Assembly (NCBI RefSeq): GCF_037126465.1
Contig: NC_088201.1
Location: 195,246,403-195,310,402 of the forward strand
DNA length: 64,000 nt
Reading direction: 5' to 3'
From: Ornithodoros turicata
Lineage: Eukaryota > Arthropoda > Arachnida > Ixodida > Argasidae
Part shown: piece by piece, positions 27,052-57,539 of the stretch
Numbering within the stretch: position 1 is the first letter of the stretch
Layout of the letters: each line of letters starts with the position of its first letter
The notes under the pieces: generated by a model
Database searches by the model: none
What the model was told of the DNA's origin: nothing
The model's input: only the letters and a program-made list of their open reading frames with translations
Made by a program: the position numbers and the translations under genes

Positions 27052-27836
27052 GTCCTTTAGGCTCTTGTAGGCTGTATGTGTTGTGTTTGTCCGTAGATGG
27101 AGCCTGCCACAGCTCATTTGTCTATCGCTTACAGTTGAGGCTTGTGTCATGTTTGTCTCTTTGTGTGTCATGCCCGTGATTTGCGAACACGTCTTCCTAA
27201 AGTGTGCTTAGCCTAATAGCACGTGGTGCGTAAGTGACGCAACGCTACACTTGTACACGTGTATAGGCGAGAGAAGGCATGAAACTCGAAAGGAAGGAGA
27301 ACTGAAGAGAATGGGTCACTTGCTTTAGATTGGTGATATCGGGTACTGCGTGACCAGCTTGATGAGCATTATTCATACTGCTTCATTGCTTTCAAATGCC
27401 ATTCTCCTTTTCAGACGAGTATCGTTCGTACAATGGCGTAGTTGTAGAGGGGGTGTTCGATTCTCTGATCGGTCAATATGTACCTCCTCTGGGCTCTTTT
27501 TCTTTTTTTCCCGGTCTCAAAAAAATAAAAATAAAATAAAAATAAAAAATGAAAAACAAAGAAAACGCTACAGAGTTTTGCAGAAGGACGGCAGCACAAA
27601 TGTAGGGTTGTCAATCGAGATATCCTGGATCCCAAAATCCCGGGATCCCGGCAATTTTTGACGTCCCGAAGCCCCCTGATTTCTTCCGGGAAATCCCGGG
27701 ATTTCGTGAGTAAATATTACAAGCAAATCAGACCCGTGTAAGCCATCACGTACAGACTCACTTCTTTATAAGGAAATTACATTTTTCTTTTATGACTGGA
27801 GGTGGCAGAGGACCGGTACCTACACGTGCGTACAGG

Positions 27837-27989
27837 TGTTTGCTGACTGTTGTTTCTTATAGCACAGAAGCTGAACGGCCCTTCAGTTCGGCAGCCCGTA
27901 TTTGCACAATAGTTCGCTCCGAAATTGGGGACGCCACCCTCATCGTTCTGTGCTTTCTCACGTCGTGTTTCAATCATTGTACAACGTGA
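27837..27989 (+). pseudogene. hAT transposase C-terminal dimerisation domain (left arm)
   Basis: The frame reads STEAERPFSSAARICTIVRS and then EIGDATLIVLCFLTSCFN, the hAT C-terminal dimerisation signature (S..ERxFS.AG......R..L......LLFL). The rest of the transposase is missing. A nearby block with ATCCCGGGATCCCGG words (about 27625-27705) may be a terminal region of the same or another hAT. Non-functional alone. Confidence 0.8.
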
Positions 27990-28042
27990 TAAGGAAGCTG
28001 CGGCGGTGTTCAAGGCCTTCCACCTACCCGTCCACTCCTATT

Positions 28043-28072
28043 GCACTCGACTTTCAGTACATCGTCCTGCCT
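28043..28072 (+). repeat. MITE-type terminal sequence downstream of hAT end (left arm)
   Basis: Thirty bases beginning GCACTCGACTTTCAGTACAT match the right TIR of the MITE at 30344-30488 with two changes. The ~20 bases before it also match that MITE. It lies 54 bp past the hAT stop codon. Mirror copy at 56307-56336. Confidence 0.65.
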
Positions 28073-28306
28073 GGGGCTTCAATTGTAGCGGGACTCGCCT
28101 TCTTTTGACGTGAAGCAGTAAAACTGAGATAACTAAAAAAGGAGCGGCATTATTATCGAAAAAAAAAAACAAAAAAAAACATTTTGCCGTCACTATTTTA
28201 CCGGTGTGGTTACACTGCGATATCTCGAGCGTTTTCCTTCGGGTAAACGTTGAATTAACGAAACACAGGTTGAACAACTTCGCAGAATACACCGATATAC
28301 TCACGG

Positions 28307-28915
28307 TAGGGTCCTGCACGGCCCGCGGGACCTGCGGGCACCCGCGCGTAGCCCGCACGCTGCTGCGGGTGAAGGTTTTTGGTGTAGCGGATAGCGGCGG
28401 GTCGGGGCGATGAGTCATTGTTGAGTGCGGAGCAGGGCAGCGGGTCGGGTACCTTCGATGCATTTTTCCAAAACACTATTAGAAAGTACATTGAGTCCCT
28501 CAATCCCTTAGGCGTCTGCGCTGCAGTCGCTTGAAATATAAAGTAAAACGTCGCTGACAAGGGCGGATCAAACGCTCACACCGTTAGTGTACAACAGCTC
28601 CTGTGTGTCACTTTTGTCGATGTCGTGTTCCCTATCACCATGCCTGAAGCCAGAAACCAATACACATTTGCACCTTTTCCCCCTACAGTAGCCATCACAC
28701 AGACACATCTAATCATCACCAGGGAGTACTTTCAGTTTACTCATCAACGTTCATCGGGTAGCGGGCCTGGTGTGGGTGAGCTTTTGGAAAAAAAATATGC
28801 GAGCTGCGTGCGAACCCGGGTCTCAGTTTCTAACGGGACGTGGTTTGCGTGTGGGCTGCAGATTTCAACCTGCGGGTAGGGTCGGATGCGGGTCAGATGA
28901 TGCTCACCCGCGGAG
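28307..28915. mobile_element. GC-rich hAT-like element ends (left arm)
   Basis: The left side starts TAGGGTCCTGCACGGCCCGC and is full of CCCGCGGG words. The right side (about 28755-28915) carries inverse-type words CGGGTAGCGGGCCTG and GGGTAGGGTCGGATGCGGGT. This is the style of some hAT terminal regions, but I cannot show a TSD. Boundaries are approximate. Confidence 0.35.
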
Positions 28916-30343
28916 GACTATACTTCGAAGCGTCATCTGAACTCGTCACAATCCCGAAATCCTGTCCCGGAAATGAATCTCATCATGAGCGAGATCGGCT
29001 GCGTTGTACTGCTACATCGCTCTCGACTGTGTCCTTCCACAATACCCGAATAATTTTGAGCTATGAAGGAATCAACCAAGACCAAGTTGTTTATGAACGA
29101 CATCCAGCATGTTGGTCTCTTTGCCCTACACATTGACAGCTGAACAGCGCAGCCACAAAACATGTCGCCATTCATAATCGCATTGTACTTTATCTAATAT
29201 GTTCGCCGTGCCATTTCACTGCTGATATTGTGCAAACGTACACACTGGAAGACACTGGAAGCACACAATTACTTCACCTCAGGCGAGCTGGTTCGTATGT
29301 CAGCGTCATTTATTTGCACACAGGTATCGTGAGGGAACGTCACAAATGCGATGTCAAGAAATTCTCCCGTTTGAGTGATCAGAACTTTTCCAGCACACAA
29401 AAAACGTCTCCCACTCAAACGATTTCTTCGTTTTGAGTTCAGGACGATGTCGCGTCTGGTGTGGCCAAGTGAGAATTGGCTCTTATGTTATGATAGTACT
29501 TTGTGGAAGGTGAAACACAACGTCACCTCGAGTGTTTGCAACAATCGCCCAGGGTGCACTATTTTACGCGCAAAACATGCCGCTAAAATAAGCAGGCTGT
29601 TGCAAAGAATTATATGCATGCCTTCGAGCATTTGCTTGAAGGAAGGATTTCTGCAGGAAGGATGCTTTCTGCACAGGTACGTCGCCACAATCAGCTTGAA
29701 GTCAAGAAAACATTGACGCAACAGGATTATATGCGCCAGATCATAGTTGTATTCGATGCATTTGCGCACTTAATTAAGTTGAACATAGAGGCATATGACT
29801 TACTTAGATGACATTTACATTTTGTTCGTGAATGACGCTGCCATCCAGAGCAGGGGAATGCACAATTGCACAATTTATGCATGTTGTCGCAGATACAAAT
29901 GTACACATGATGCCTTGCGTTCGGTTCTCCTAAACCGAGTTATATAACACCGCTGGACAAAATATAGATGCTCACAGCATTAAGGAACCCATCAAATTTC
30001 GTACTAGAGGGAACCAAGCCTCTCGGTGGTGCTGCGCAGAAATATTAAAAAGTGAACAAAAACTAAAAATAAGCATACATTACATACATGTAAAACACAC
30101 GACGGTCACAGATAAGGTAAAGATTAAAGGGAATCTTTGGCAGACAGACCACGTGACAATAACAGTACACTACAGCTATAATAACTTTTGAACATCTTTT
30201 TACCGCCTAATTACAATGTGTAAAAGAGTTTAAGAAATGACACTATTTTGAAGAGAGCGTTCGATTTCCCAGAACGCGAACCTCGGGGCAACGCTGCATC
30301 TGCAGCGTTGTATTTTTTGTTTTTAGAGCCGCAGTCACCACAC
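28916..30343. other. Non-coding part of left arm
   Basis: Short frames only, none recognised. The mirror stretch is 54036-55463. Confidence 0.4.
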
Positions 30344-30488
30344 AGGCAGCACAATGTACTGAAAGTCGAGTGCAAAGGAGTGGACGGTATGTGTCTTATT
30401 AATATCCTGTAGTTTCCCGTGTTTGTTCAAGTCCTTCCATTTTCCCGTTCGCCCCCATGCACTCGACTTTCAGTACATTGTGCTGCCT
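30344..30488. mobile_element. 145-bp MITE with perfect 30-bp TIRs (left arm)
   Basis: AGGCAGCACAATGTACTGAA starts the left TIR (30344-30373). Its exact reverse complement closes the element at 30459-30488. The right half resembles the sequence downstream of the hAT C-terminus at 28020-28072, so the MITE may be a deletion derivative of that hAT. No TSD is obvious. Confidence 0.75.
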
Positions 30489-33400
30489 AGGAGGAATGTT
30501 CTTCAGCCTCTTTGGCAGTGAAACCACACCGTTACTTTGTAGATGTTTTTCTGAAACCTATCTTGCACTCCTGTCTGTCAGAGGAGAATACGCGCTGAAC
30601 GCTAAAAAATTCCCCTCCCTGCCGAGTTTCATTCCTCCTCCCATTTACACGTGCTTAAACACACAGACGGCTTGCTACATGCGGAAGTGTCGTTAGGCTA
30701 AGCATTCTCTAAGTGTGGCGTCTCACATTTTAGTGGCACTTTCGTGCCCTCGGGTACAAAATTTTCTCACTCTATAACCAAGACAATCACTTTAGAGTCG
30801 ATGGTCCCACTGATTGTGAAACCGCAGTGAAACTTTACCTAACGGGGACAGCTTTCGATGTAAAAACTGTGAAATCACAATGGAGCGCCTTCTACTTCTA
30901 AAATCTACTTCTGTCATACTGAGTACAATGTGTAAGGTTTCAAATGCCGGGGAACAAAAGCTTGTATAGATATACGGCTAATTCTTTCTCGGCATAATTT
31001 CTTGTATGTAGGGTGTTTCACGAGAATCCCCCGGCTGAATACATCGTGAACAGGCAGGCCATCGAAGAAATTTCTTTTTGGTGGAGATCCTTGGGACATC
31101 GGCCATGAACTGAGTAGTGAGCGGCTCCTTTGCATACGCTCACTAAATAAGTAAACATGCTAACGTTTAACATTTACTTAGCAGGATTACGGAAGATCTG
31201 TTTTACGCATCGAGACGTTCAGCGCAAAATATTCCGAGAAGAAAAGACGCATCGACACTTAGTAATTTTTTCGAGTAATTAATTGGTTTCGGTTTACATA
31301 TTTCTTGCGCATAGCAGCGCACCAATGCGCTGTTTGGATCAGCGATCCGGCCGTCGATTTCGTGCTCATCCGCCTGGTTGACACACGGGGGGACAGAAAA
31401 TAAGGAACAGCCGAAAGGGACTCTTTGGTATTCGTTCTCAAAGCGACTGGTAAACAGCGCTGGCGGTTCTATCGTTCCGTTGGTGAGATAACGTGCTCTT
31501 ATCATGGATGATGACGAATACCCAGCGAGGGCTGCGAACTAGTAGGGTACACGCATCATCTTCACCAGCTCGCTTGCTTCCTAGCCATTTTTTCATAGTA
31601 GGGTACACTCTTAAAAATTAGCTGCACCACATACCACGCTCCTAGCCAACCATCATCCCGAATGACAACGTTCTCTCCCTTGATTTGAGGAAAATGGGAG
31701 GGTTACGGTTTCTTTGGACTGTCAATTATTCCGAACATAAGGGGAAAAAAGGTCATTGACAGAATGGCGTAAATGCAGGCTAAATTTGAGACTTCGTGTT
31801 TGTGTTTGTTTACGTGTCTTGCCCATCGCTCAGGCTTGCCTATCAGGGAAAAAAAAGGTCCTGCCTCCCGTTTTCAATAAATCGAGCGAGAACGTCTAAG
31901 GAGCGTGCAATGCCAGACAGTTGCACCTTGCACGACTGTGCAAGTGCTGATGGCATATTTTGGCAAGTGTTGATGTGTTGTACATTTAGCTACTTATTTT
32001 ATTTGTTTACTTTCGTGTGCGTGCGCGCCTGTGTGTATGCGTGTGTGTGTGTGCGCGCGCGTCTTTTTCTATCCGTGACCCTTCCTTTTCCTCCCTGATG
32101 CTGATGCACATTTCAGGGATATGATCTAGAACAGGTTGTTCAAGACAAGTGAAAATTGCCTATGATGCGGGGAGGTATGTACAATGCAATCATCTGATAC
32201 TATTTATAAATCCGTGTTTCGTACTGCTTTGACATGGGTTGGGCCAATAGTAGCTGATAGCCACAATGAAACGCAAGGAGCCAAGGACAGAATTTTGACG
32301 CCCTGTGGAAACTTGGCAATACATTCTAGGAATGTGGACGGTCCCCAAATTTCCACAGCACGGAAATCAAACCTGCGTTTAACCAAGAAGTATATAAAGA
32401 TATAAAAAACTTTTGTCATGAAAGAGCTCGCTACAGAGTGCGTGAAAGAAAAAAAGGTTCGGAGCCCCAAGCTGATCATGAGAAATTAACGGTTTTATTT
32501 CGCGGGCCCCGCGCAGCTGAAGTATAACCGATACGGCACGAAGGTGTCGACGTCTGTGGAACAACAGGAGTACCCTGGCAGACCACAGGTCACTGAGAAC
32601 GGCCGAGCCAACGCCGCTCAGATAAGGAAAGCCTACGGATTGCCCCTTCTCCCTGCCTCGCTATGTGGACATATGAAGCCAGAATTCGTCTGCTATTACG
32701 ATTCGCAGTTCTGCGAGTTCAAGAACTCGCAAATGATTGCACATCACCTGGAACCTGCAGACCTAAATATTAAGACAAAAAGCGCAAGTTCAATCAGTTT
32801 TGAGAAAGACTGAGACCGTTTGCCGCTTTATTTCCAAGTTTAACCATTTTGTACCCGGGGACTTTCAATGACAACTCGCAGACGACGGTGGTTCTTCTCC
32901 ATGGCCACAACCGCTGAAACCACGTGCGTGACTGACTGCGGCCGTTGAAAACACGATCCTGACTGCCTGATCCCTAATTCTTACGTCACGTGAACGAGCG
33001 CACTGGCTTTCTGCATCTAGGTGGTGTTGCCCGAGGGAGCGGACGAGGTGAGAGTGACGGCCCACGTCACGGACTCGCTGGGAGGCTTAGAGACTGCCTG
33101 GCGCCGATAAGTACGTTCGCCTAGAGTTTGGCAGCGCTACACTCGCGCTGTCTCTCTCTCGTGATGGTACGGGAAGTAAAAGTTTCAGAGTGCACTCGTC
33201 AGACGAAGAATACTATTACATGCGCTGTGCACGATATTCCACTTGTTTCTGTGCAATATCTGAGAATGTACAGCCCGGGGAACGGTAAAAATAAAAACCT
33301 AAATCACGTCACTGTTATAAAATGCACGAACTGCACAAAGGGCACCGGAGCGCACCTGTATTATATCTGTTTTTATTCTCTTTTTTTTTTTACATTCAAA

Positions 33401-34388
33401 CTGAAGCTGATAGATGTGTGATTCTGTAAGCTTGTAAACTTGAGCTGGTCTGCCTTTGTATCTTCTTCGTGCCGCACGCTCAGGTTTTTTTCATCATAAA
33501 TTTCGTCATGCCACCAGCTCGCCTGTGTCTACGCCATTCTGTCATACACGTAGAGCTATGTCTCGGTTGCGTAGCACTATGTGAAAATCATCCGTAATGT
33601 GAATATGCATTTATTTTTTAATTATTAATTACATATTCTACAGATATAGGTGGAACAAATTCCTAAATAGCAAGTGTTTGGCAAGCATAGAAGTATAAGA
33701 TGTCGCGAGTGCATGTAATTCCCAAAATCATCATACTCACGGGGGATCTAGTGGGAGTCATTACAATTGGTACTTGGATTATGAAAGTTGTGTTGTACTT
33801 GAGATATGTCTCTCATTAAGTTAGTTATCATCCGCACTGTGTCAAAAGAGTCTCAACGTTAATAATCTCAGCCGCAGGGGCATCTGAATTCTTGTTCTGA
33901 TGACTGTTGTGATCTGACTCCCATATTCCTCTCTTCCCAAACAGTCACGGATATGTGACAAGCGGTAGCTTTGGTTGGAGTAAGCAAAAAGGAAAAAGAA
34001 ACAATGTGACGCCCATAAGAAGAGCCAACAACTGGCTGCTGACAAACATTCGAAGCGCTCGCTCCATTCATTTCAGGTTTCGCTCAGAGCTAGTACATCT
34101 ACGGCACCTGGGAGGCACATTTTACCCGTATTTCGAGACTGTCTGATAATATTCTGCCTTGCGCCGAAAACGCGCGCTGTTGACGGTTTCCCTTCTTCCG
34201 ATTTGATGGGGAAACAGTCCTAGGTCACTTACGCCTTATTCAAAGACGCAACACAACTTGGTCATTCTGACACAGCACACACAATGGGCGTGATGAGAGA
34301 ACACGCTACTTTGGAAAACTTAGCACAGTCGCCACAAGTGGCGCTGACTGCCGTAAACAGGAGCGCCTTCTTGCCCTACCGAACAGCC
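30489..34388. other. Non-coding part of left arm
   Basis: Contains a GT/GC alternating tract (about 32012-32061), and the word TAGTAGGGTACAC twice near 31540 and 31600. Near 31010 the GGGTGTTTCACGAGAATCCC word looks like a transposon end but has no partner that I can find. No coding frame is recognisable. The mirror stretch is 49991-53890. Confidence 0.4.
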
Positions 34389-35160
34389 CTATGAGCGGAC
34401 GGGGGCGATGATGCGTGAAGGTGGGTGGCCTTGGAAGGCGGGCTTAAGACGGTCAATGGAGGCCGACTAGGTTGTACCAAGAACGTCGATAATGAAGGTC
34501 TTGGGGCTACGTCGGATCACTTTATAGGGTCCTGAATGGGGAGCCTCTAGAGAGCGGCGAATGCGACACTTTCGCAGAAAAATGTGTGCCGATGAGTGCA
34601 GGCTGGGCTGTACGAATGAGGACTGTGAAGTTGAGGCGCGGGTCGGCGTGAAGCGGTGGCGGCAAAAGCTCGGCGAACGCGGGTGAGAAAAGAAGAAGCA
34701 TTCTTGGAAGAGACGGCAGGCGTGAAGTCGAGGAGGAGAGCCGTATACCAACTGAGCCGAAGAGCAGGCGAGGTTGGGCTTCACGGCGGAACGTATGCCG
34801 AGGAGGACGACGGGCAGCATATCGGCACATCGGGTGCGCTTGTCCTGAGCCATGATGACCTGCTTCAAGTGCCGATGAAAGCGCTCGACCAAGACATTGC
34901 TGCAAGCCGAAGTTCAGATACCTGTGCTACCCACAAAGAGAGTTAAGGCATGGAAGAATCGACTTTTGAATTTTTGGCCCTTGTCCTTCACAACCTCTTG
35001 AGGGACGCCAGAGCGGGAAATCCATATGCAGAGGAATGTGCGCGCGACGGTATCTGCGTACGTCAGTAGGTAGCGTGCCCACGATGTTCAGGTGTACCCT
35101 TGAGAAACGGTCCGTGCAAGATAGAAGAGTGCCAAGAGGCGTGACAGTGTGGCGATGACA
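34389..35160 (-). pseudogene. pol (remnant): Ty3-type integrase/pol 3' remnant (left arm)
   Basis: Mirror of 49219-49990. It differs from the right copy by at least two substitutions (34367 just outside, 34649 inside, a His/Pro change). See the right-arm entry for the motifs. Confidence 0.75.
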
Positions 35161-35174
35161 TGGAAGTAGTAGTG

Positions 35175-35350
35175 TATCAGCTCAAGTATCCGGAAACTCA
35201 CATCTTCGTCTGGACGCCATTAATTAGCAATTAGAGCTAATTGGGACCCCCCACATTACTCAGGACCCACCAGGGAGTCATTTCACTAATTGGGGATCAT
35301 CTAAGACACGTCCAGACCACTGTGTGAGTTTCCGGCTACTTGAGCTGATA
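35175..35350. mobile_element. 176-bp TA-flanked MITE (left arm)
   Basis: The ends are inverted: TATCAGCTCAAGTATCCGGA at the left and its near-perfect reverse complement at 35325-35350, with TA at both edges. The core contains AATTAGC/GCTAATT words that pair further. TA targets fit a Tc1/mariner-type MITE. It directly abuts the integrase remnant. Confidence 0.75.
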
Positions 35351-35419
35351 AAAAATAAAAAAATAGGTAGAAAATAAAATAAAAAGATAGAAATAGAGTG
35401 GAGAGAAGGACTTTAGTTG

Positions 35420-37850
35420 AAGATCAACGACGTCATCTTGAAGAAAGCGGCCCGGAACGGCCGCTGACCGTCGCTGGGCGACGGAGCACTGAGGCAGGTT
35501 GCAAAGCATCGCAGCACCAGTTCCGCACATCCTGTGACGTCACCTGTGACGTCATCATGGCATGTCTGGGCAACTTAGGACAGCTCTGGACATGCAAGGA
35601 GAAAAACACTCCTAATACAGAGGCTGGGAAAGCAAGAGTATGCAAACCATCAATAGCTAACAAGAAAAAACAATTAGTTACACAACAAATGAGCCTACCA
35701 GAACAGGAGCGCAGAACGATGCGACTGCTCCATCCGAGAGGCAGGCAGAGAACTGACTCGTAATGTTTTTTTTTTCTCCTGTATAAAGCCCAGCAGGTGC
35801 ATCCCCTAGCGGTTACTTTCTCAACTAATCTCACAACAAAATTATTAAGAATCACGCCAGCGCTACTCCCGTTCCCAAGGCAGAAGATGATAGAAAATGC
35901 CGGGGATGCCCGGACAACAGCAACCAGCACTGGCACGAAAATCGCAAACAAAGCGGGAACAAAGTTGGCGAAAGCATTAGTTACACAACAAATCACCTCA
36001 CCACAGCAGGAGCGCAGACCGATGCGACTGCTCTCCGTGACAGCCCGCCAGAAACTGAGCGAGCGCAGGGAGCGCACGTCTGCTTTCCGCGACAGCCGGA
36101 GAGAAACTGACTGGGGCGCCGCCCCGCGGCCGCTACGCATACGCGCTCCTAGCGCCCTCTGGGGCGACCACCTCCGAGAGGCTAAGAGTGAAGAGCATTC
36201 CTGCGCCCCCTGCTGCCCGTTCTCATTGGTCGTGAGGCTAAGAGAGAAGAGCATTCCTGCGCCCCCTGCTGGCCGTTCTCATTGGTCGTGACGTCATCCT
36301 ATTGTCTCAGGGCTACCCTGTTTTTTTCCACTAATGCTCCTTTGGTCAATCTACAATGAAGCCACAGTATGACGTCATCATGCACCTGCGTGGCTCAAGG
36401 ACGCGTACGCTCTAGACAGGGGACCTATTATTTATTGAATCACTATCCCATGATTAGTTCCTTTATTCTTCTATAACGATTGAATAGGAAACTATTGCAG
36501 AAGAGCACCATGCATGAAAGCTGATCGTAGGAATTCCAAAGTCTTACTAAATGAGACTTGCAAAAGAACAAAATATCCTAACATGTAACTCCATCAACGG
36601 CAAATAAGAGGACTAGGTACTCAAGAAATCAACAAAGAGTACGGGTAAACAGGAGCGCAGAACTCAGGGCAGCACTATCGTCAAGACAACAATGTTCCTT
36701 GTTAAAAAATAAAAAAATAAAAAACGTCAACACAGGAAAGCATGCATATCGGGGCATGTCAGAACACGTCAGCACAAATTGTACGACTGCTGGGCAACAG
36801 AGGAAAACAAAGAAACACTTGAACAGAGTGAAAAAGACACTCACCATCATTTTTCCCATTCACAGCATTCCCTCATTGTAAATCCGCTCGTCACAAAATC
36901 CACCTGCATCGTTGAACACCATTCACCAGTGACGAACCACACATCCGCACCCCATGAGAGGCAGACAGAACCCCACCAAAGCTACGCTCTTCTACTGACG
37001 GCCAACGCCAGGAGCAGAATTTGCGTATCGAGACCCGTCAGTGTCCAAGAGAGAAGTGAAACCTTGCGCCCCCTGCAGGCCGTTCTCATTGGTCGTGACG
37101 TCATCCTATTGTCTCAGGGCTACACAGTTTTTTCCCACTAATGCTCCTCTAGACAAGGTCAACCTGAAACAATAGTCTCTTGGTATGCGGTCATCATGCA
37201 GGTGCGTGGCTCAAGGACGCGTACGCTCTAGACAGGGCACCTGTTATTTATTGAATCACTATCCCTAGATCATTTCCTTTATTCTACTATAATGATTGCG
37301 TAGGGAACTATTGCAGAAAAACACCATAGACAAGAGGAGATTGTAGCGTTTCATTCCCAAAGTCTTACTGTACAGGAAAAAAAAAAAAGGTTCAGCAAGA
37401 CATAAAGTCACACACCTGTCCCCCTCGCGGTAACTCTCTGAACTAAATGAATCGCAAAATTATTAAGATTTGTACTTTACCCATTCAAGGCAGCACTATC
37501 GTCAAGAATATGCCTTGTACAAAAGGAAAAAAACTACATGCAGAAGGAAAGCATGTCAGAACAAGCCCAGGCATGTCTGCACATGTTTGTCAGACAAGGG
37601 GGGAAAAAGCGAAAAGAAACAAAGAAGGAAACCAGCATCAAACTATTTCTTCTTATTCAAAAACAGTGCTCATCATAAATCTGCCCAAGACAATACACAC
37701 TATTTTTCTATTGCCACACTTTTTTCCAGTAACGGTCAATGCATTGCTACAGACTGCGTGACGTCATCACATCCTGTCTGAAGAAGAAGACACCGACAAA
37801 GACTCCTATTATTTATTGAATCGCAAGGTTATTTCCTTTGTCCTACTCTT
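35420..37850. repeat. Satellite-like block 1, ~0.8-kb degenerate tandem units (left arm)
   Basis: Recurring modules include GGCCGTTCTCATTGGTCGTG at 36271 and 37079 (808-bp period), GTGGCTCAAGGACGCGTACG at about 36390 and 37205, TTATTTATTGAATC at about 36428, 37246 and 37808, and GGCAGCACTATCGTCAAGA at about 36667 and 37489. A 56-bp tandem duplication lies at 36180-36291. TGACGTCA recurs six times. The mirror block is 46529-48959. Confidence 0.8.
35433..36254 (-). other. 273-codon open frame of uncertain status (left arm)
   Basis: A long frame starting MLFSLSLTTNENGQQG. It contains two similar segments (SSRIGLRSCCGEVICCVTN and SSRIVLRSCSGRLICCVTN, about 100 residues apart) and hydrophobic stretches (e.g. 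FANFVPALFAIFVPVLVAVV). The internal similarity mirrors the DNA-level tandem repeats, and the opposite strand is also fairly open. I recognise no family. It may be fortuitous in GC-richer DNA. Mirror at 48125-48946 (plus). Confidence 0.25.
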
Positions 37851-38449
37851 AATGACATTGATTCTCTCATTAAAATTCAACAAAAAAGCACCCCGCATAT
37901 TAACGATTTTCACCCCAAAGGCTCATCTTGGTCATTAGAATTACAGTAAACTGCCACTGCTCTTTTAAAATAATAAGTGAGACCACTCCACATCACCTCC
38001 AGGCTTATGTAATACATGACCCTTTCTATGCTGATACATTCGTTGTCTGAGGCTACACCTGCGAGCAAAAAAGGCGCGGAAGCCGGGTGGGCAAAGTTCC
38101 ATTCGCGCATGGCGAGCAAAAAGGCGCGAAAGCACAAGACAGAACGCCTTTACGGGAACACGATAGCATTCCTATACTATATTAATGATTATTGCACTGC
38201 AGTTTAGAAAAACTACAACTAAACTATAATTTTAGGAGCCCAACTTTCTATGGAAACTATAATTGCCCTATTACTTGGATCGCTACTAATGAAGCGCTCC
38301 AATTTTTTCTCTCTTCCCATTTCAGCCTTGTCATGCAGGGAAGCAGACTCATATCCAAAATAATTAATTTACACTGAGGGTGCCGTGCTTCAGGAATTCC
38401 TATCCTGCGCTCAGACGCAAGCATTTCTTCACGGATACCTTTAACAGCT

Positions 38450-41310: not shown

Positions 41311-41521
41311 CGGGCACTCATAAAATACCCTGGCCAAAACAAAGACTTCGCCAGGTTCGCGAGGCAATTCCATTAAAAACGCTCGTCCTATCCTACAGAT
41401 AGCAATGCAAACGCGACTGCCCTTATTTTTTAAACCACTATTTCACGCAATAGTACATAAATGTATCACTCGTGCCACACGAAAAGGCAAACACTTACTT
41501 GTCAAGTGGGGTCCCAGCGCG

Positions 41522-41560
41522 TGCGCGCGCGCACACACACAGGCACACACACACACACAA
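41522..41560. repeat. GC/CA microsatellite differing between arms
   Basis: A (GC)n then (CA)n tract. The CA run has eight units here and seven in the right arm (about 42819-42858). Confidence 0.8.
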
Positions 41561-42252: not shown

Positions 42253-43068
42253 CACTGTTTTATCACTTAAACAGCAACAGAGCTGACATCGTAGTACCCT
42301 CGCGATAAATCTTTTATTCCAGCGCCGGCAGAATGCATTCAGAAAAGGCTTCGGGTGTGTAGGGTCAGCCCAAGGCGTGTTGATAGGAGCGCGCTGCTCT
42401 GTTGGGTACCCAAGCTTGCAGCCAGCGATGCTGGAATGATTATTTTATTTTATTTTATTTGGAGTCATTATCGGCTCACCTATTTAGTGAAGACCTATGA
42501 ACACGGTTTGGTTTAAAAATGATGAGAGCTACAGTGTGTAGCGAATGATGTTCACATTTACGCGTCTGTATAGTGATCGCTGCGTAGAAGCACGGCACCG
42601 TTTTCTTCGTATAGCGAACATGCATTCCTTTCTTTCTTTATTGGTTCGCGCCGGCCGAGTGACGATATCCTATTACATCCGGAACGAGGACCGATTGTCT
42701 TGCGTAAGCATACATGTCTGTGCCGTCTTTTGACGATGGCAGGATAATTATTGACCTGAGGAATAATATGGATTTATGTGGTTGTGAAAATAGACTTTGT
42801 GTTTGTGAGTGTGAAAATGTTTGTGTGTGTGTGTGCCTGTGTGTGTGCGCGCGCGCACGCGCTGGGACCCCACTTGACAAGTAAGTGTTTGCCTTTTCGT
42901 GTGGCACGAGTGATACATTTATGTACTATTGCGTGAAATAGTGGTTTAAAAAATAAGGGCAGTCGCGTTTGCATTGCTATCTGTAGGATACGACGAGCGT
43001 TTTTAATGGAATTGCCTCGCGAACCCGGCGAAGTCTTTGTTTTGGCCAGGGTATTTTATGAGTGCCCG

Positions 43069-45929: not shown

Positions 45930-46528
45930 AGCTGTTAAAGGTATCCGTGAAGAAATGCTTGCGTCTGAGCGCAGGATAGGAATTCCTGAAGCACGGCACC
46001 CTCAGTGTAAATTAATTATTTTGGATATGAGTCTGCTTCCCTGCATGACAAGGCTGAAATGGGAAGAGAGAAAAAATTGGAGCGCTTCATTAGTAGCGAT
46101 CCAAGTAATAGGGCAATTATAGTTTCCATAGAAAGTTGGGCTCCTAAAATTATAGTTTAGTTGTAGTTTTTCTAAACTGCAGTGCAATAATCATTAATAT
46201 AGTATAGGAATGCTATCGTGTTCCCGTAAAGGCGTTCTGTCTTGTGCTTTCGCGCCTTTTTGCTCGCCATGCGCGAATGGAACTTTGCCCACCCGGCTTC
46301 CGCGCCTTTTTTGCTCGCAGGTGTAGCCTCAGACAACGAATGTATCAGCATAGAAAGGGTCATGTATTACATAAGCCTGGAGGTGATGTGGAGTGGTCTC
46401 ACTTATTATTTTAAAAGAGCAGTGGCAGTTTACTGTAATTCTAATGACCAAGATGAGCCTTTGGGGTGAAAATCGTTAATATGCGGGGTGCTTTTTTGTT
46501 GAATTTTAATGAGAGAATCAATGTCATT

Positions 46529-48959
46529 AAGAGTAGGACAAAGGAAATAACCTTGCGATTCAATAAATAATAGGAGTCTTTGTCGGTGTCTTCTTCTTCA
46601 GACAGGATGTGATGACGTCACGCAGTCTGTAGCAATGCATTGACCGTTACTGGAAAAAAGTGTGGCAATAGAAAAATAGTGTGTATTGTCTTGGGCAGAT
46701 TTATGATGAGCACTGTTTTTGAATAAGAAGAAATAGTTTGATGCTGGTTTCCTTCTTTGTTTCTTTTCGCTTTTTCCCCCCTTGTCTGACAAACATGTGC
46801 AGACATGCCTGGGCTTGTTCTGACATGCTTTCCTTCTGCATGTAGTTTTTTTCCTTTTGTACAAGGCATATTCTTGACGATAGTGCTGCCTTGAATGGGT
46901 AAAGTACAAATCTTAATAATTTTGCGATTCATTTAGTTCAGAGAGTTACCGCGAGGGGGACAGGTGTGTGACTTTATGTCTTGCTGAACCTTTTTTTTTT
47001 TTCCTGTACAGTAAGACTTTGGGAATGAAACGCTACAATCTCCTCTTGTCTATGGTGTTTTTCTGCAATAGTTCCCTACGCAATCATTATAGTAGAATAA
47101 AGGAAATGATCTAGGGATAGTGATTCAATAAATAACAGGTGCCCTGTCTAGAGCGTACGCGTCCTTGAGCCACGCACCTGCATGATGACCGCATACCAAG
47201 AGACTATTGTTTCAGGTTGACCTTGTCTAGAGGAGCATTAGTGGGAAAAAACTGTGTAGCCCTGAGACAATAGGATGACGTCACGACCAATGAGAACGGC
47301 CTGCAGGGGGCGCAAGGTTTCACTTCTCTCTTGGACACTGACGGGTCTCGATACGCAAATTCTGCTCCTGGCGTTGGCCGTCAGTAGAAGAGCGTAGCTT
47401 TGGTGGGGTTCTGTCTGCCTCTCATGGGGTGCGGATGTGTGGTTCGTCACTGGTGAATGGTGTTCAACGATGCAGGTGGATTTTGTGACGAGCGGATTTA
47501 CAATGAGGGAATGCTGTGAATGGGAAAAATGATGGTGAGTGTCTTTTTCACTCTGTTCAAGTGTTTCTTTGTTTTCCTCTGTTGCCCAGCAGTCGTACAA
47601 TTTGTGCTGACGTGTTCTGACATGCCCCGATATGCATGCTTTCCTGTGTTGACGTTTTTTATTTTTTTATTTTTTAACAAGGAACATTGTTGTCTTGACG
47701 ATAGTGCTGCCCTGAGTTCTGCGCTCCTGTTTACCCGTACTCTTTGTTGATTTCTTGAGTACCTAGTCCTCTTATTTGCCGTTGATAGAGTTACATGTTA
47801 GGATATTTTGTTCTTTTGCAAGTCTCATTTAGTAAGACTTTGGAATTCCTACGATCAGCTTTCATGCATGGTGCTCTTCTGCAATAGTTTCCTATTCAAT
47901 CGTTATAGAAGAATAAAGGAACTAATCATGGGATAGTGATTCAATAAATAATAGGTCCCCTGTCTAGAGCGTACGCGTCCTTGAGCCACGCAGGTGCATG
48001 ATGACGTCATACTGTGGCTTCATTGTAGATTGACCAAAGGAGCATTAGTGGAAAAAAACAGGGTAGCCCTGAGACAATAGGATGACGTCACGACCAATGA
48101 GAACGGCCAGCAGGGGGCGCAGGAATGCTCTTCTCTCTTAGCCTCACGACCAATGAGAACGGGCAGCAGGGGGCGCAGGAATGCTCTTCACTCTTAGCCT
48201 CTCGGAGGTGGTCGCCCCAGAGGGCGCTAGGAGCGCGTATGCGTAGCGGCCGCGGGGCGGCGCCCCAGTCAGTTTCTCTCCGGCTGTCGCGGAAAGCAGA
48301 CGTGCGCTCCCTGCGCTCGCTCAGTTTCTGGCGGGCTGTCACGGAGAGCAGTCGCATCGGTCTGCGCTCCTGCTGTGGTGAGGTGATTTGTTGTGTAACT
48401 AATGCTTTCGCCAACTTTGTTCCCGCTTTGTTTGCGATTTTCGTGCCAGTGCTGGTTGCTGTTGTCCGGGCATCCCCGGCATTTTCTATCATCTTCTGCC
48501 TTGGGAACGGGAGTAGCGCTGGCGTGATTCTTAATAATTTTGTTGTGAGATTAGTTGAGAAAGTAACCGCTAGGGGATGCACCTGCTGGGCTTTATACAG
48601 GAGAAAAAAAAAACATTACGAGTCAGTTCTCTGCCTGCCTCTCGGATGGAGCAGTCGCATCGTTCTGCGCTCCTGTTCTGGTAGGCTCATTTGTTGTGTA
48701 ACTAATTGTTTTTTCTTGTTAGCTATTGATGGTTTGCATACTCTTGCTTTCCCAGCCTCTGTATTAGGAGTGTTTTTCTCCTTGCATGTCCAGAGCTGTC
48801 CTAAGTTGCCCAGACATGCCATGATGACGTCACAGGTGACGTCACAGGATGTGCGGAACTGGTGCTGCGATGCTTTGCAACCTGCCTCAGTGCTCCGTCG
48901 CCCAGCGACGGTCAGCGGCCGTTCCGGGCCGCTTTCTTCAAGATGACGTCGTTGATCTT
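46529..48959. repeat. Satellite-like block 1 (right arm)
   Basis: Mirror of 35420-37850, with one substitution noticed (left-arm 36592). Confidence 0.8.
48125..48946 (+). other. 273-codon open frame of uncertain status (right arm)
   Basis: Mirror of 35433-36254; the encoded residues are the same. Confidence 0.25.
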
Positions 48960-49028
48960 CAACTAAAGTCCTTCTCTCCACTCTATTTCTATCTTTTTAT
49001 TTTATTTTCTACCTATTTTTTTATTTTT

Positions 49029-49204
49029 TATCAGCTCAAGTAGCCGGAAACTCACACAGTGGTCTGGACGTGTCTTAGATGATCCCCAATTAGTGAAATG
49101 ACTCCCTGGTGGGTCCTGAGTAATGTGGGGGGTCCCAATTAGCTCTAATTGCTAATTAATGGCGTCCAGACGAAGATGTGAGTTTCCGGATACTTGAGCT
49201 GATA
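49029..49204. mobile_element. 176-bp TA-flanked MITE (right arm)
   Basis: Mirror copy of 35175-35350. Confidence 0.75.
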
Positions 49205-49218
49205 CACTACTACTTCCA

Positions 49219-49990
49219 TGTCATCGCCACACTGTCACGCCTCTTGGCACTCTTCTATCTTGCACGGACCGTTTCTCAAGGGTACACCTGAACATCGTGG
49301 GCACGCTACCTACTGACGTACGCAGATACCGTCGCGCGCACATTCCTCTGCATATGGATTTCCCGCTCTGGCGTCCCTCAAGAGGTTGTGAAGGACAAGG
49401 GCCAAAAATTCAAAAGTCGATTCTTCCATGCCTTAACTCTCTTTGTGGGTAGCACAGGTATCTGAACTTCGGCTTGCAGCAATGTCTTGGTCGAGCGCTT
49501 TCATCGGCACTTGAAGCAGGTCATCATGGCTCAGGACAAGCGCACCCGATGTGCCGATATGCTGCCCGTCGTCCTCCTCGGCATACGTTCCGCCGTGAAG
49601 CCCAACCTCGCCTGCTCTTCGGCTCAGTTGGTATACGGCTCTCCTCCTCGACTTCACGCCTGCCGTCTCTTCCAAGAATGCTTCTTCTTTTCTCACCCGC
49701 GTTCGCCGAGCTTTTGCCGCCACCGCTTCCCGCCGACCCGCGCCTCAACTTCACAGTCCTCATTCGTACAGCCCAGCCTGCACTCATCGGCACACATTTT
49801 TCTGCGAAAGTGTCGCATTCGCCGCTCTCTAGAGGCTCCCCATTCAGGACCCTATAAAGTGATCCGACGTAGCCCCAAGACCTTCATTATCGACGTTCTT
49901 GGTACAACCTAGTCGGCCTCCATTGACCGTCTTAAGCCCGCCTTCCAAGGCCACCCACCTTCACGCATCATCGCCCCCGTCCGCTCATAG
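49219..49990 (+). pseudogene. pol (remnant): Ty3-type integrase/pol 3' remnant (right arm)
   Basis: In successive registers I read TPLGTLLSCTDRFSRVHLN, an early integrase motif; then YADTVARTFLCIWISRSGVP with QEVV.DKG..FKSRFF after it; then MVERFHRHLKQVIMAQ; and finally GPYKVIRRSPKTFIIDV and SIDRLKPAFQGHPPSR with a stop at about 49988. This is the order of a Ty3 integrase catalytic core and C-terminal domain. A stretch holding the first catalytic aspartate appears deleted between the first two blocks, and there are several frameshifts. No LTR is visible beside it. It is dead. Confidence 0.8.
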
Positions 49991-52900
49991 GGCTGTTCGG
50001 TAGGGCAAGAAAGCGCTCCTGTTTACGGCAGTCAGCGCCACTTGTGGCGACTGTGCTAAGTTTTCCAAAGTAGCGTGTTCTCTCATCACGCCCATTGTGT
50101 GTGCTGTGTCAGAATGACCAAGTTGTGTTGCGTCTTTGAATAAGGCGTAAGTGACCTAGGACTGTTTCCCCATCAAATCGGAAGAAGGGAAACCGTCAAC
50201 AGCGCGCGTTTTCGGCGCAAGGCAGAATATTATCAGACAGTCTCGAAATACGGGTAAAATGTGCCTCCCAGGTGCCGTAGATGTACTAGCTCTGAGCGAA
50301 ACCTGAAATGAATGGAGCGAGCGCTTCGAATGTTTGTCAGCAGCCAGTTGTTGGCTCTTCTTATGGGCGTCACATTGTTTCTTTTTCCTTTTTGCTTACT
50401 CCAACCAAAGCTACCGCTTGTCACATATCCGTGACTGTTTGGGAAGAGAGGAATATGGGAGTCAGATCACAACAGTCATCAGAACAAGAATTCAGATGCC
50501 CCTGCGGCTGAGATTATTAACGTTGAGACTCTTTTGACACAGTGCGGATGATAACTAACTTAATGAGAGACATATCTCAAGTACAACACAACTTTCATAA
50601 TCCAAGTACCAATTGTAATGACTCCCACTAGATCCCCCGTGAGTATGATGATTTTGGGAATTACATGCACTCGCGACATCTTATACTTCTATGCTTGCCA
50701 AACACTTGCTATTTAGGAATTTGTTCCACCTATATCTGTAGAATATGTAATTAATAATTAAAAAATAAATGCATATTCACATTACGGATGATTTTCACAT
50801 AGTGCTACGCAACCGAGACATAGCTCTACGTGTATGACAGAATGGCGTAGACACAGGCGAGCCGGTGGCATGACGAAATTTATGATGAAAAAAACCTGAG
50901 CGTGCGGCACGAAGAAGATACAAAGGCAGACCAGCTCAAGTTTACAAGCTTACAGAATCACACATCTATCAGCTTCAGTTTGAATGTAAAAAAAAAAAGA
51001 GAATAAAAACAGATATAATACAGGTGCGCTCCGGTGCCCTTTGTGCAGTTCGTGCATTTTATAACAGTGACGTGATTTAGGTTTTTATTTTTACCGTTCC
51101 CCGGGCTGTACATTCTCAGATATTGCACAGAAACAAGTGGAATATCGTGCACAGCGCATGTAATAGTATTCTTCGTCTGACGAGTGCACTCTGAAACTTT
51201 TACTTCCCGTACCATCACGAGAGAGAGACAGCGCGAGTGTAGCGCTGCCAAACTCTAGGCGAACGTACTTATCGGCGCCAGGCAGTCTCTAAGCCTCCCA
51301 GCGAGTCCGTGACGTGGGCCGTCACTCTCACCTCGTCCGCTCCCTCGGGCAACACCACCTAGATGCAGAAAGCCAGTGCGCTCGTTCACGTGACGTAAGA
51401 ATTAGGGATCAGGCAGTCAGGATCGTGTTTTCAACGGCCGCAGTCAGTCACGCACGTGGTTTCAGCGGTTGTGGCCATGGAGAAGAACCACCGTCGTCTG
51501 CGAGTTGTCATTGAAAGTCCCCGGGTACAAAATGGTTAAACTTGGAAATAAAGCGGCAAACGGTCTCAGTCTTTCTCAAAACTGATTGAACTTGCGCTTT
51601 TTGTCTTAATATTTAGGTCTGCAGGTTCCAGGTGATGTGCAATCATTTGCGAGTTCTTGAACTCGCAGAACTGCGAATCGTAATAGCAGACGAATTCTGG
51701 CTTCATATGTCCACATAGCGAGGCAGGGAGAAGGGGCAATCCGTAGGCTTTCCTTATCTGAGCGGCGTTGGCTCGGCCGTTCTCAGTGACCTGTGGTCTG
51801 CCAGGGTACTCCTGTTGTTCCACAGACGTCGACACCTTCGTGCCGTATCGGTTATACTTCAGCTGCGCGGGGCCCGCGAAATAAAACCGTTAATTTCTCA
51901 TGATCAGCTTGGGGCTCCGAACCTTTTTTTCTTTCACGCACTCTGTAGCGAGCTCTTTCATGACAAAAGTTTTTTATATCTTTATATACTTCTTGGTTAA
52001 ACGCAGGTTTGATTTCCGTGCTGTGGAAATTTGGGGACCGTCCACATTCCTAGAATGTATTGCCAAGTTTCCACAGGGCGTCAAAATTCTGTCCTTGGCT
52101 CCTTGCGTTTCATTGTGGCTATCAGCTACTATTGGCCCAACCCATGTCAAAGCAGTACGAAACACGGATTTATAAATAGTATCAGATGATTGCATTGTAC
52201 ATACCTCCCCGCATCATAGGCAATTTTCACTTGTCTTGAACAACCTGTTCTAGATCATATCCCTGAAATGTGCATCAGCATCAGGGAGGAAAAGGAAGGG
52301 TCACGGATAGAAAAAGACGCGCGCGCACACACACACACGCATACACACAGGCGCGCACGCACACGAAAGTAAACAAATAAAATAAGTAGCTAAATGTACA
52401 ACACATCAACACTTGCCAAAATATGCCATCAGCACTTGCACAGTCGTGCAAGGTGCAACTGTCTGGCATTGCACGCTCCTTAGACGTTCTCGCTCGATTT
52501 ATTGAAAACGGGAGGCAGGACCTTTTTTTTCCCTGATAGGCAAGCCTGAGCGATGGGCAAGACACGTAAACAAACACAAACACGAAGTCTCAAATTTAGC
52601 CTGCATTTACGCCATTCTGTCAATGACCTTTTTTCCCCTTATGTTCGGAATAATTGACAGTCCAAAGAAACCGTAACCCTCCCATTTTCCTCAAATCAAG
52701 GGAGAGAACGTTGTCATTCGGGATGATGGTTGGCTAGGAGCGTGGTATGTGGTGCAGCTAATTTTTAAGAGTGTACCCTACTATGAAAAAATGGCTAGGA
52801 AGCAAGCGAGCTGGTGAAGATGATGCGTGTACCCTACTAGTTCGCAGCCCTCGCTGGGTATTCGTCATCATCCATGATAAGAGCACGTTATCTCACCAAC

Positions 52901-53890
52901 GGAACGATAGAACCGCCAGCGCTGTTTACCAGTCGCTTTGAGAACGAATACCAAAGAGTCCCTTTCGGCTGTTCCTTATTTTCTGTCCCCCCGTGTGTCA
53001 ACCAGGCGGATGAGCACGAAATCGACGGCCGGATCGCTGATCCAAACAGCGCATTGGTGCGCTGCTATGCGCAAGAAATATGTAAACCGAAACCAATTAA
53101 TTACTCGAAAAAATTACTAAGTGTCGATGCGTCTTTTCTTCTCGGAATATTTTGCGCTGAACGTCTCGATGCGTAAAACAGATCTTCCGTAATCCTGCTA
53201 AGTAAATGTTAAACGTTAGCATGTTTACTTATTTAGTGAGCGTATGCAAAGGAGCCGCTCACTACTCAGTTCATGGCCGATGTCCCAAGGATCTCCACCA
53301 AAAAGAAATTTCTTCGATGGCCTGCCTGTTCACGATGTATTCAGCCGGGGGATTCTCGTGAAACACCCTACATACAAGAAATTATGCCGAGAAAGAATTA
53401 GCCGTATATCTATACAAGCTTTTGTTCCCCGGCATTTGAAACCTTACACATTGTACTCAGTATGACAGAAGTAGATTTTAGAAGTAGAAGGCGCTCCATT
53501 GTGATTTCACAGTTTTTACATCGAAAGCTGTCCCCGTTAGGTAAAGTTTCACTGCGGTTTCACAATCAGTGGGACCATCGACTCTAAAGTGATTGTCTTG
53601 GTTATAGAGTGAGAAAATTTTGTACCCGAGGGCACGAAAGTGCCACTAAAATGTGAGACGCCACACTTAGAGAATGCTTAGCCTAACGACACTTCCGCAT
53701 GTAGCAAGCCGTCTGTGTGTTTAAGCACGTGTAAATGGGAGGAGGAATGAAACTCGGCAGGGAGGGGAATTTTTTAGCGTTCAGCGCGTATTCTCCTCTG
53801 ACAGACAGGAGTGCAAGATAGGTTTCAGAAAAACATCTACAAAGTAACGGTGTGGTTTCACTGCCAAAGAGGCTGAAGAACATTCCTCCT

Positions 53891-54035
53891 AGGCAGCACA
53901 ATGTACTGAAAGTCGAGTGCATGGGGGCGAACGGGAAAATGGAAGGACTTGAACAAACACGGGAAACTACAGGATATTAATAAGACACATACCGTCCACT
54001 CCTTTGCACTCGACTTTCAGTACATTGTGCTGCCT
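53891..54035. mobile_element. 145-bp MITE (right arm)
   Basis: Mirror copy of 30344-30488. Confidence 0.75.
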
Positions 54036-55463
54036 GTGTGGTGACTGCGGCTCTAAAAACAAAAAATACAACGCTGCAGATGCAGCGTTGCCCCGAGGTT
54101 CGCGTTCTGGGAAATCGAACGCTCTCTTCAAAATAGTGTCATTTCTTAAACTCTTTTACACATTGTAATTAGGCGGTAAAAAGATGTTCAAAAGTTATTA
54201 TAGCTGTAGTGTACTGTTATTGTCACGTGGTCTGTCTGCCAAAGATTCCCTTTAATCTTTACCTTATCTGTGACCGTCGTGTGTTTTACATGTATGTAAT
54301 GTATGCTTATTTTTAGTTTTTGTTCACTTTTTAATATTTCTGCGCAGCACCACCGAGAGGCTTGGTTCCCTCTAGTACGAAATTTGATGGGTTCCTTAAT
54401 GCTGTGAGCATCTATATTTTGTCCAGCGGTGTTATATAACTCGGTTTAGGAGAACCGAACGCAAGGCATCATGTGTACATTTGTATCTGCGACAACATGC
54501 ATAAATTGTGCAATTGTGCATTCCCCTGCTCTGGATGGCAGCGTCATTCACGAACAAAATGTAAATGTCATCTAAGTAAGTCATATGCCTCTATGTTCAA
54601 CTTAATTAAGTGCGCAAATGCATCGAATACAACTATGATCTGGCGCATATAATCCTGTTGCGTCAATGTTTTCTTGACTTCAAGCTGATTGTGGCGACGT
54701 ACCTGTGCAGAAAGCATCCTTCCTGCAGAAATCCTTCCTTCAAGCAAATGCTCGAAGGCATGCATATAATTCTTTGCAACAGCCTGCTTATTTTAGCGGC
54801 ATGTTTTGCGCGTAAAATAGTGCACCCTGGGCGATTGTTGCAAACACTCGAGGTGACGTTGTGTTTCACCTTCCACAAAGTACTATCATAACATAAGAGC
54901 CAATTCTCACTTGGCCACACCAGACGCGACATCGTCCTGAACTCAAAACGAAGAAATCGTTTGAGTGGGAGACGTTTTTTGTGTGCTGGAAAAGTTCTGA
55001 TCACTCAAACGGGAGAATTTCTTGACATCGCATTTGTGACGTTCCCTCACGATACCTGTGTGCAAATAAATGACGCTGACATACGAACCAGCTCGCCTGA
55101 GGTGAAGTAATTGTGTGCTTCCAGTGTCTTCCAGTGTGTACGTTTGCACAATATCAGCAGTGAAATGGCACGGCGAACATATTAGATAAAGTACAATGCG
55201 ATTATGAATGGCGACATGTTTTGTGGCTGCGCTGTTCAGCTGTCAATGTGTAGGGCAAAGAGACCAACATGCTGGATGTCGTTCATAAACAACTTGGTCT
55301 TGGTTGATTCCTTCATAGCTCAAAATTATTCGGGTATTGTGGAAGGACACAGTCGAGAGCGATGTAGCAGTACAACGCAGCCGATCTCGCTCATGATGAG
55401 ATTCATTTCCGGGACAGGATTTCGGGATTGTGACGAGTTCAGATGACGCTTCGAAGTATAGTC

Positions 55464-56072
55464 CTCCGCGGGTGAGCATCATCTGACCCGCATCCGACCC
55501 TACCCGCAGGTTGAAATCTGCAGCCCACACGCAAACCACGTCCCGTTAGAAACTGAGACCCGGGTTCGCACGCAGCTCGCATATTTTTTTTCCAAAAGCT
55601 CACCCACACCAGGCCCGCTACCCGATGAACGTTGATGAGTAAACTGAAAGTACTCCCTGGTGATGATTAGATGTGTCTGTGTGATGGCTACTGTAGGGGG
55701 AAAAGGTGCAAATGTGTATTGGTTTCTGGCTTCAGGCATGGTGATAGGGAACACGACATCGACAAAAGTGACACACAGGAGCTGTTGTACACTAACGGTG
55801 TGAGCGTTTGATCCGCCCTTGTCAGCGACGTTTTACTTTATATTTCAAGCGACTGCAGCGCAGACGCCTAAGGGATTGAGGGACTCAATGTACTTTCTAA
55901 TAGTGTTTTGGAAAAATGCATCGAAGGTACCCGACCCGCTGCCCTGCTCCGCACTCAACAATGACTCATCGCCCCGACCCGCCGCTATCCGCTACACCAA
56001 AAACCTTCACCCGCAGCAGCGTGCGGGCTACGCGCGGGTGCCCGCAGGTCCCGCGGGCCGTGCAGGACCCTA
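55464..56072. mobile_element. GC-rich hAT-like element ends (right arm)
   Basis: Mirror copy of 28307-28915. Confidence 0.35.
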
Positions 56073-56389
56073 CCGTGAGTATATCGGTGTATTCTGCGAA
56101 GTTGTTCAACCTGTGTTTCGTTAATTCAACGTTTACCCGAAGGAAAACGCTCGAGATATCGCAGTGTAACCACACCGGTAAAATAGTGACGGCAAAATGT
56201 TTTTTTTTGTTTTTTTTTTTCGATAATAATGCCGCTCCTTTTTTAGTTATCTCAGTTTTACTGCTTCACGTCAAAAGAAGGCGAGTCCCGCTACAATTGA
56301 AGCCCCAGGCAGGACGATGTACTGAAAGTCGAGTGCAATAGGAGTGGACGGGTAGGTGGAAGGCCTTGAACACCGCCGCAGCTTCCTTA

Positions 56390-56542
56390 TCACGTTGTAC
56401 AATGATTGAAACACGACGTGAGAAAGCACAGAACGATGAGGGTGGCGTCCCCAATTTCGGAGCGAACTATTGTGCAAATACGGGCTGCCGAACTGAAGGG
56501 CCGTTCAGCTTCTGTGCTATAAGAAACAACAGTCAGCAAACA
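56390..56542 (-). pseudogene. hAT transposase C-terminal dimerisation domain (right arm)
   Basis: Mirror copy of 27837-27989; the encoded residues are the same. Confidence 0.8.
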
Positions 56543-57327
56543 CCTGTACGCACGTGTAGGTACCGGTCCTCTGCCACCTCCAGTCATAAAAGAAAAATGT
56601 AATTTCCTTATAAAGAAGTGAGTCTGTACGTGATGGCTTACACGGGTCTGATTTGCTTGTAATATTTACTCACGAAATCCCGGGATTTCCCGGAAGAAAT
56701 CAGGGGGCTTCGGGACGTCAAAAATTGCCGGGATCCCGGGATTTTGGGATCCAGGATATCTCGATTGACAACCCTACATTTGTGCTGCCGTCCTTCTGCA
56801 AAACTCTGTAGCGTTTTCTTTGTTTTTCATTTTTTATTTTTATTTTATTTTTATTTTTTTGAGACCGGGAAAAAAAGAAAAAGAGCCCAGAGGAGGTACA
56901 TATTGACCGATCAGAGAATCGAACACCCCCTCTACAACTACGCCATTGTACGAACGATACTCGTCTGAAAAGGAGAATGGCATTTGAAAGCAATGAAGCA
57001 GTATGAATAATGCTCATCAAGCTGGTCACGCAGTACCCGATATCACCAATCTAAAGCAAGTGACCCATTCTCTTCAGTTCTCCTTCCTTTCGAGTTTCAT
57101 GCCTTCTCTCGCCTATACACGTGTACAAGTGTAGCGTTGCGTCACTTACGCACCACGTGCTATTAGGCTAAGCACACTTTAGGAAGACGTGTTCGCAAAT
57201 CACGGGCATGACACACAAAGAGACAAACATGACACAAGCCTCAACTGTAAGCGATAGACAAATGAGCTGTGGCAGGCTCCATCTACGGACAAACACAACA
57301 CATACAGCCTACAAGAGCCTAAAGGAC

Positions 57328-57527: not shown

Positions 57528-57539
57528 TGTTGCATATAT
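57528..57539. repeat. 12-bp TSD, 3' side of LINE-B
   Basis: TGTTGCATATAT recurs at 63237-63248. Confidence 0.82.

Follow-up and report, generated by a model that had tools for sequence, protein, structure and literature searches.

Non-autonomous transposons of the Foldback type, and those resembling miniature inverted-repeat transposable elements (MITEs), are palindromic or nearly so and are mobilized by the proteins of a partner element, while fold-back copying in self-complementary defective genomes of the adenovirus type and in hairpin-replicating parvoviruses gives rise to long inverted duplications. For the virus-like Polinton (Maverick) transposons, self-copying has been inferred mainly from the genes that they carry. 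Polintons are described as elements of 15–20 kb with a gene set (PMC4028283), and vertebrate Mavericks are reported to have 6-bp target duplications, (AGT)2//(ACT)2 as one of two end motifs and, in intact elements, inverted repeats of 46–1,447 bp (PMC8097293). Here we describe a 64,000-nucleotide stretch of the Ornithodoros turicata genome (hereafter the window: 195.25–195.31 Mb of the 235.6-Mb contig C1, NC_088201.1, in an assembly of 1.07 Gb) that contains a 30-kb palindrome. This palindrome is two nested things, a 14-kb palindromic transposon, apparently dependent on a virus-like Polinton transposon, and a mirrored flank.

The palindrome is captured by a single inverted-repeat alignment that covers exactly positions 27052–57327 (coordinate sum 84,379), with arms of 15,075 bp each (27052–42126 and 42253–57327), zero net length difference and a 126-bp spacer between them (42127–42252), which bears out the geometry that an earlier note had read from the letters alone. 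The arms differ, ungapped, at 27 positions (99.82% identical); the high identity given in that note thus stands, and its figure of about 99.9% proves slightly too high. Chance cannot account for such a match over 15 kb, and the window contains no gap letters. Eleven of the mismatches belong to one shifted CA-rich stretch (41558–41582) and the remainder are 16 point differences (17 events in all). These events are unevenly spread along the arm: 13 of the 17 fall within its innermost 2,663 bp (binomial p 1.9e-7), four lie in 27052–39463, and none is found in 27052–33515.

The core element occupies positions 35165–49214 (14,050 bp) and is a near-perfect palindrome in itself, with a left arm of 6,962 bp (35165–42126, + strand) and a mirrored right arm (42253–49214, − strand) on either side of the GC-rich (74%) spacer. 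It belongs to a dispersed family with Polinton-type ends, 6-bp target duplications and an end motif in common with elements carrying an integrase and a DNA polymerase B. Because this end motif is shared with elements of the latter kind that are not palindromic, we are confident in reading the core as a non-autonomous Polinton that is itself one giant palindrome with 7-kb arms.

The dispersal of the family is evident from several searches. A 401-bp query from the centre found matches of 96–100% identity on many contigs (best 40 scored of 817 candidates), and five other genomic copies (K1–K5, the window copy being W) were read with 20 kb on each side. In all five, no match of more than 300 bp to the window lies outside approximately 35160–49219, with K4 showing smaller matches of 85–292 bp outside the core, and each copy is palindromic over 13.7–14.4 kb (K2 apart from an insert in one arm). 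End matches of other elements start within 8 bp of 35165. Arms within a copy are 99.4–99.9% identical in W, K1, K2, K4 and K5 and 98.3% identical in K3, and arms from different copies are 91–99% identical. A 29-base spacer motif recurs 221 times in the genome at no more than two mismatches, and a 21-base end motif 352 times, the reversed control yielding none in either case; the 221 spacer-motif places are most likely long inverted repeats. Among the first 100 end matches listed, all of them on C1, 86 can be matched into 43 facing pairs, with a median of 13.6 kb, which leaves 14 without a partner. The spacer, at no more than one mismatch, is present in 16 of these 43 pairs, lying within 65 bp of the midpoint in 10 of the 16 and off by 140–1,007 bp in the other six. 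Across the six copies it is near-constant, with little change beyond one variable base and changes in a GC run, and divergence among copies goes from 0–1.2% in the inner 2.2 kb to 11.5–26% in the outermost kilobase; this central conservation may reflect a function at the centre, or an exchange of ends between subfamilies. Rfam gave no match at gathering score, and IMG/VR viral contigs gave no exact match to the 26-base spacer pattern. The earlier note had listed transposon fragments and satellite-like DNA as the cargo of the arms, and the satellite-looking direct repeats in fact sit inside the 14-kb element; its statement that the arms carry no host genes holds insofar as none was recognized, among the few open reading frames (ORFs) scanned. 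One further element (C1:158155558–158169688) seems to have inserted into a fellow member of this family: the sequence to its left resembles window positions 37340–37376.

The termini of the copies read are AGTAGTA…TACTACT and match the (AGT)2…(ACT)2 pattern. Six-base-pair target duplications flank most of the 17 AGTAGTA-ended insertions compared, being perfect in 14, carrying one or two mismatches in two, and lacking in one (K3). The 17 comprise 11 palindromes (nine of them with perfect duplications), three gene-bearing elements (C4:71.04, C1:183.99 and C1:228.40), two short elements with another core and one that is unassigned. Each element end also folds into a stem-loop: in the window the left terminus (35165–35350, + strand) opens with AGTAGTA followed by the terminal stem-loop, and the right terminus (49029–49214, − strand) mirrors it. 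Pairing in this stem is maintained by two-sided changes. In an alignment of 10 ends, 14 of the 36 stem pairs show changes on both sides, changed cells are two-sided in 37 cases and one-sided in six, and 95.8% of stem cells are paired as against at most 35.8% in slid controls, which are not independent, the sequences being related and the structure having been taken from one of them. K2, whose stem sequence is unrelated though its fold is similar, was excluded from this alignment.

This genome also contains possible partners in abundance. The family PF03175, which includes the Polinton polymerases, is represented at no fewer than 91 places (91 scored of 1,253 candidates); open frames of 1,161–1,282 amino acids are present at many of these, and in one PF03175 family all six elements read end in AGTAGTA, with a different interior sequence. 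None of the 29 such places on C1 falls within a pair of window-type end motifs, the nearest being 24 kb from an end. The connection is instead made by an element at 184.56 Mb that has the window end motif: a piece of it shares 33% identity (E 7e-8) with an ORF matching the integrase family rve, and on its other side lies a 1,286-amino-acid open frame in which 140 residues match PF03175 (E 4.1e-6, above the cut-off). These integrase and polymerase pieces each occur at 150 or more places (150 scored of 1,720 and 1,944 candidates, respectively), and among the places scored C1 holds 20 same-strand integrase–polymerase combinations with a spacing of 8.4–11.1 kb. Ten of the 43 facing pairs on C1 hold one or both pieces at the scored places, and none of these ten holds the spacer; the 17 pairs left beside these ten and the 16 with the spacer include one at 87.07 Mb with an integrase piece, a mirrored one at 45.47 Mb and three short ones that were read. 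As pairs with the window end motif thus include both palindromes and gene pieces, the palindromes and a gene-bearing Polinton family share their ends. The window arm itself holds no recognizable Polinton genes that would make it autonomous: its longest stop-to-stop frames are 281 and 175 amino acids, and Pfam gave no match for either of the arm ORFs that were scanned (175 and 142 amino acids). Replication and insertion of the palindromic element would instead fall to the integrase and the protein-primed, type-B DNA polymerase of a resident Polinton. A 66-amino-acid polymerase piece had no homologue in one protein look-up, and the Pfam suggestion of DUF3791 for two of four 66-amino-acid pieces (E 0.026–0.027, far below the cut-off) was taken as chance; it took a longer piece to bring out the PF03175 match. 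Across the genome, several Polinton families still have numerous long polymerase frames that are open, suggestive of recent activity.

Outside the core, the palindrome has a different history. Its right outer arm (49215–57327, − strand) is a portion of a regional duplicon; the 11 further matches that were scored all lie at C1 193.8–200.0 Mb. One paralogue read (C1:198.45 Mb) is collinear across 57327 and into the sequence to the right of the palindrome (57328–57535), up to the point where a long interspersed nuclear element (LINE) interrupts the window at approximately 57536–63227; at its other end this paralogue passes an element-free insertion site into sequence that the window lacks, save for matches of 119 and 90 bp. 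Because the paralogue crosses 57327 and leaves the window sequence at the insertion site, we take the right flank to be native and the left outer arm (27052–35164, + strand, 8,113 bp with three mismatches) to be its inverted copy, probably a recent and local mirror copy that extended the palindrome secondarily. A 30-kb element bounded by 27052 and 57327 was rejected, as the paralogue continues across the latter. A query across 35165 gave seven listed paralogues, all of which stop matching at 35161. At the left junction (27051/27052) a dispersed repeat is truncated (26632–27053, with copies of about 80% identity elsewhere), and a natural end of the repeat at this point was likewise rejected since it extends further in all four other copies read.

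The distribution of arm differences suggests where the copying began. The outer element arm has one substitution against 19.4 expected from the inner rate, and 12 point differences lie at or inside 39464. Because four of the 17 difference events fall in 27052–39463 and 13 further in, the young outward copy appears to begin inside the element arm, probably within 36593–39463. Judged by structure alone, break-induced copying fits best as the origin of the extension, as a one-sided copy runs from homology (the element arm) to a junction with unrelated sequence. Following a break on the left, the broken side would have used the right arm as its template, with copying then running outward through 8.1 kb of the right flank until the resulting end was joined inside the dispersed repeat, lengthening the palindrome from 14 to 30 kb. 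In yeast, inverted repeats near a break are reported to shift repair toward break-induced replication (PMC6103520); the process proposed here is the same, although that system uses designed repeats in yeast and here we see the end product only.

The main rival for this outer extension is that 27052–35164 is a misassembly or chimera, arising where the wrong identical arm was exited or a folded molecule was joined. So small a number of differences between the outer arms would fit such an error, as would the length of a 30-kb palindrome, which exceeds many read lengths. However, mirrored flanks occur in none of the 15 other elements checked on both sides, unlike sequence resumes 8.1 kb out, inside a repeat and with no gap letters in the window, and the identity gradient points to copying from inside the element, such that we consider misassembly of the extension unlikely. 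Assembly error had been among the explanations offered in the earlier note; it does not fit the 14-kb core and would apply to the outer 8.1 kb only, because the two flanks are unlike each other in all five other whole copies and in all 10 other elements with both ends read.

Several other features of this region were observed. Outer-arm copies, among the matches scored, cluster in both orientations over about 6 Mb (C1:193.8–200.0 Mb), with one pair reaching 97.9% identity over 3.4 kb. The LINE in the right flank (57536–63227, − strand) has two long open frames, at 61488–62828 and 57711–61487, encoding endonuclease, reverse transcriptase and RNase H, and the paralogue alignment overlaps by 17 bases at this LINE, as expected for a target duplication. 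A second, related LINE (5021–10346, − strand) has the same three kinds of domain, located in a 1,329-amino-acid open frame. Immediately to the right of the window (approximately 64620–69105 in its numbering, within C1:195310403–195320402) lies a tandem array whose repeat unit measures about 263 bp, part of one unit being common to the 198.45-Mb paralogue.

The symmetry of the core arms can be followed through the differences among copies. Copy pairs that do not involve K3 have 61–546 symmetric sites, where the two copies differ and each is the same in its two arms, as against 12–52 asymmetric sites, with symmetric sites in excess in all 10 such pairs. Within single copies, each of the 13 substitutions that separate the element arms of W is private to one arm (seven left, six right), 37 of the 40 between-arm substitutions in K4 are seen in one arm only, and K2 carries a 3,658-bp insertion in a single arm. 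A relative at C1:58.97 Mb is 3,648 bp long, spacer-free and identical to its own reverse complement, with the target duplication CAGTTC; it is equivalent to the outermost 1.8 kb of the arm with the fold at a new position. In two further short relatives, inverted repeats of about 694 and 1,339 bp enclose another core (one of them, L061, contains unread bases), and the core of L059 is 98.5% identical over 200 bp to the gene-bearing pair at 87.07 Mb. Because the differences lie mostly in both arms, and because the 3,648-bp exact palindrome is refolded elsewhere, this comparison of sequences favours arms that were symmetric already at insertion, with fold-back copying before it. It is likely that the palindromic element is made and kept symmetric in this manner. 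During strand-displacement copying a strand would fold back and one arm would template the other or, alternatively, mismatch repair would act within the long hairpin; the arms would thereby be identical before insertion and drift apart afterwards.

Alternatively, the transposon might be truly palindromic and its arms kept alike after insertion by ordinary gene conversion between them, of the sort known from sex-chromosome palindromes, without fold-back replication. Arm identities of 99.4–99.9% within copies (98.3% in K3), set against differences of 1–9% between copies, would agree with this, as would the recent homogenization of the outer part of the window palindrome. The 3,658-bp insertion that K2 keeps in one arm speaks against efficient conversion in place, however, as do the 37 one-arm substitutions among 40 in K4, and a spacer-free exact palindrome with a new centre needs a fold-back step. 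We therefore think it quite improbable that conversion accounts for the symmetry.

In sum, we consider it probable that the locus as a whole represents a palindromic non-autonomous Polinton, formed by fold-back copying, whose flank was later mirrored. Several observations weigh against this interpretation. Neither replication intermediates nor transposition events were observed. K3 departs from the other copies in its sites (with K4, for example, 21 symmetric versus 158 asymmetric), its arm ends come from different subfamilies and it has no target duplication; on account of these unlike ends, the missing duplication and a 100-base gap 375 bp past its right end, it looks recombinant or misassembled. 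The flanks of the window copy do not show a direct target duplication, and cannot because they are mirrored, as expected if one side was replaced; the three bases beside the element (35162–35164) differ from the empty-site paralogue read. The window end motif is on none of the 91 scored PF03175 places, the link to a polymerase coming from a separate piece, and the arm interior is unmatched by the four 4-kb gene-bearing Polinton pieces searched. Finally, not all elements with these ends are palindromic: among five further end-motif pairs, three (87.07, 206.78 and 184.56 Mb) are non-palindromic 3 kb inside, the remaining two being mirrored there at 100%, and 27 of the 43 pairs on C1 lack the spacer at up to one mismatch.

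Two explanations of the core fare worse. It might be a terminal-inverted-repeat or foldback transposon of another superfamily, with its AGTAGTA ends and 6-bp duplications a coincidence, as a transposase of its own was not found and its interior is unmatched by the Polinton pieces searched; but the 21-base end motif is shared with integrase and polymerase B elements and has no match in the reversed control, and ends and duplication length agree with those reported for Mavericks (PMC8097293), which makes coincidence highly improbable. The sex-chromosome palindrome and the gene-amplification inverted duplication raised in the earlier note have arm length and identity alone in their favour and can be dismissed with hardly any reservation, as the inner 14 kb is a dispersed transposon found on many contigs with target duplications, rather than a unique or local non-mobile sequence, and the outer part is found beside one copy only.

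Palindromic dependents of this kind, with their record of both-arm changes, give fold-back copying a countable signature, here in a family of mobile elements with 221 spacer-motif matches in a single genome, and at the window locus one member of the family seems to have caused the inverted duplication of its own flank. More tentatively, and with more doubt than conviction, we suggest that the element might be a hairpin-replicating Polinton satellite, in which every cycle would go through a fold-back strand, the near-invariant GC-rich spacer would serve as turn-around or origin, arm templating would renew the symmetry, that of the terminal stem-loops too, each generation, and inserted copies would mirror neighbouring host DNA, as in this window. 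Among the titles listed in literature searches, none names a palindromic or non-autonomous Polinton, from which it does not follow that such an element has never been published. The element resembles reported Polintons and Mavericks in its AGT-AGT ends, 6-bp target duplications and terminal inverted repeats (PMC8097293), and its end motif is common to resident elements with integrase and PF03175 polymerase. Unlike them, it contains no recognized Polinton gene and has terminal stem-loops, and apart from 126 bp it consists entirely of its inverted repeats, which measure about 7 kb as against the far shorter repeats reported for vertebrate Mavericks (46–1,447 bp; PMC8097293). From Foldback and MITE-like transposons it differs in its size of about 14 kb, its near-identical arms and its Polinton ends, and from the adenovirus-type and parvovirus genomes in that its palindromes sit in the genome as insertions, flanked by target duplications and built around a spacer that is conserved.

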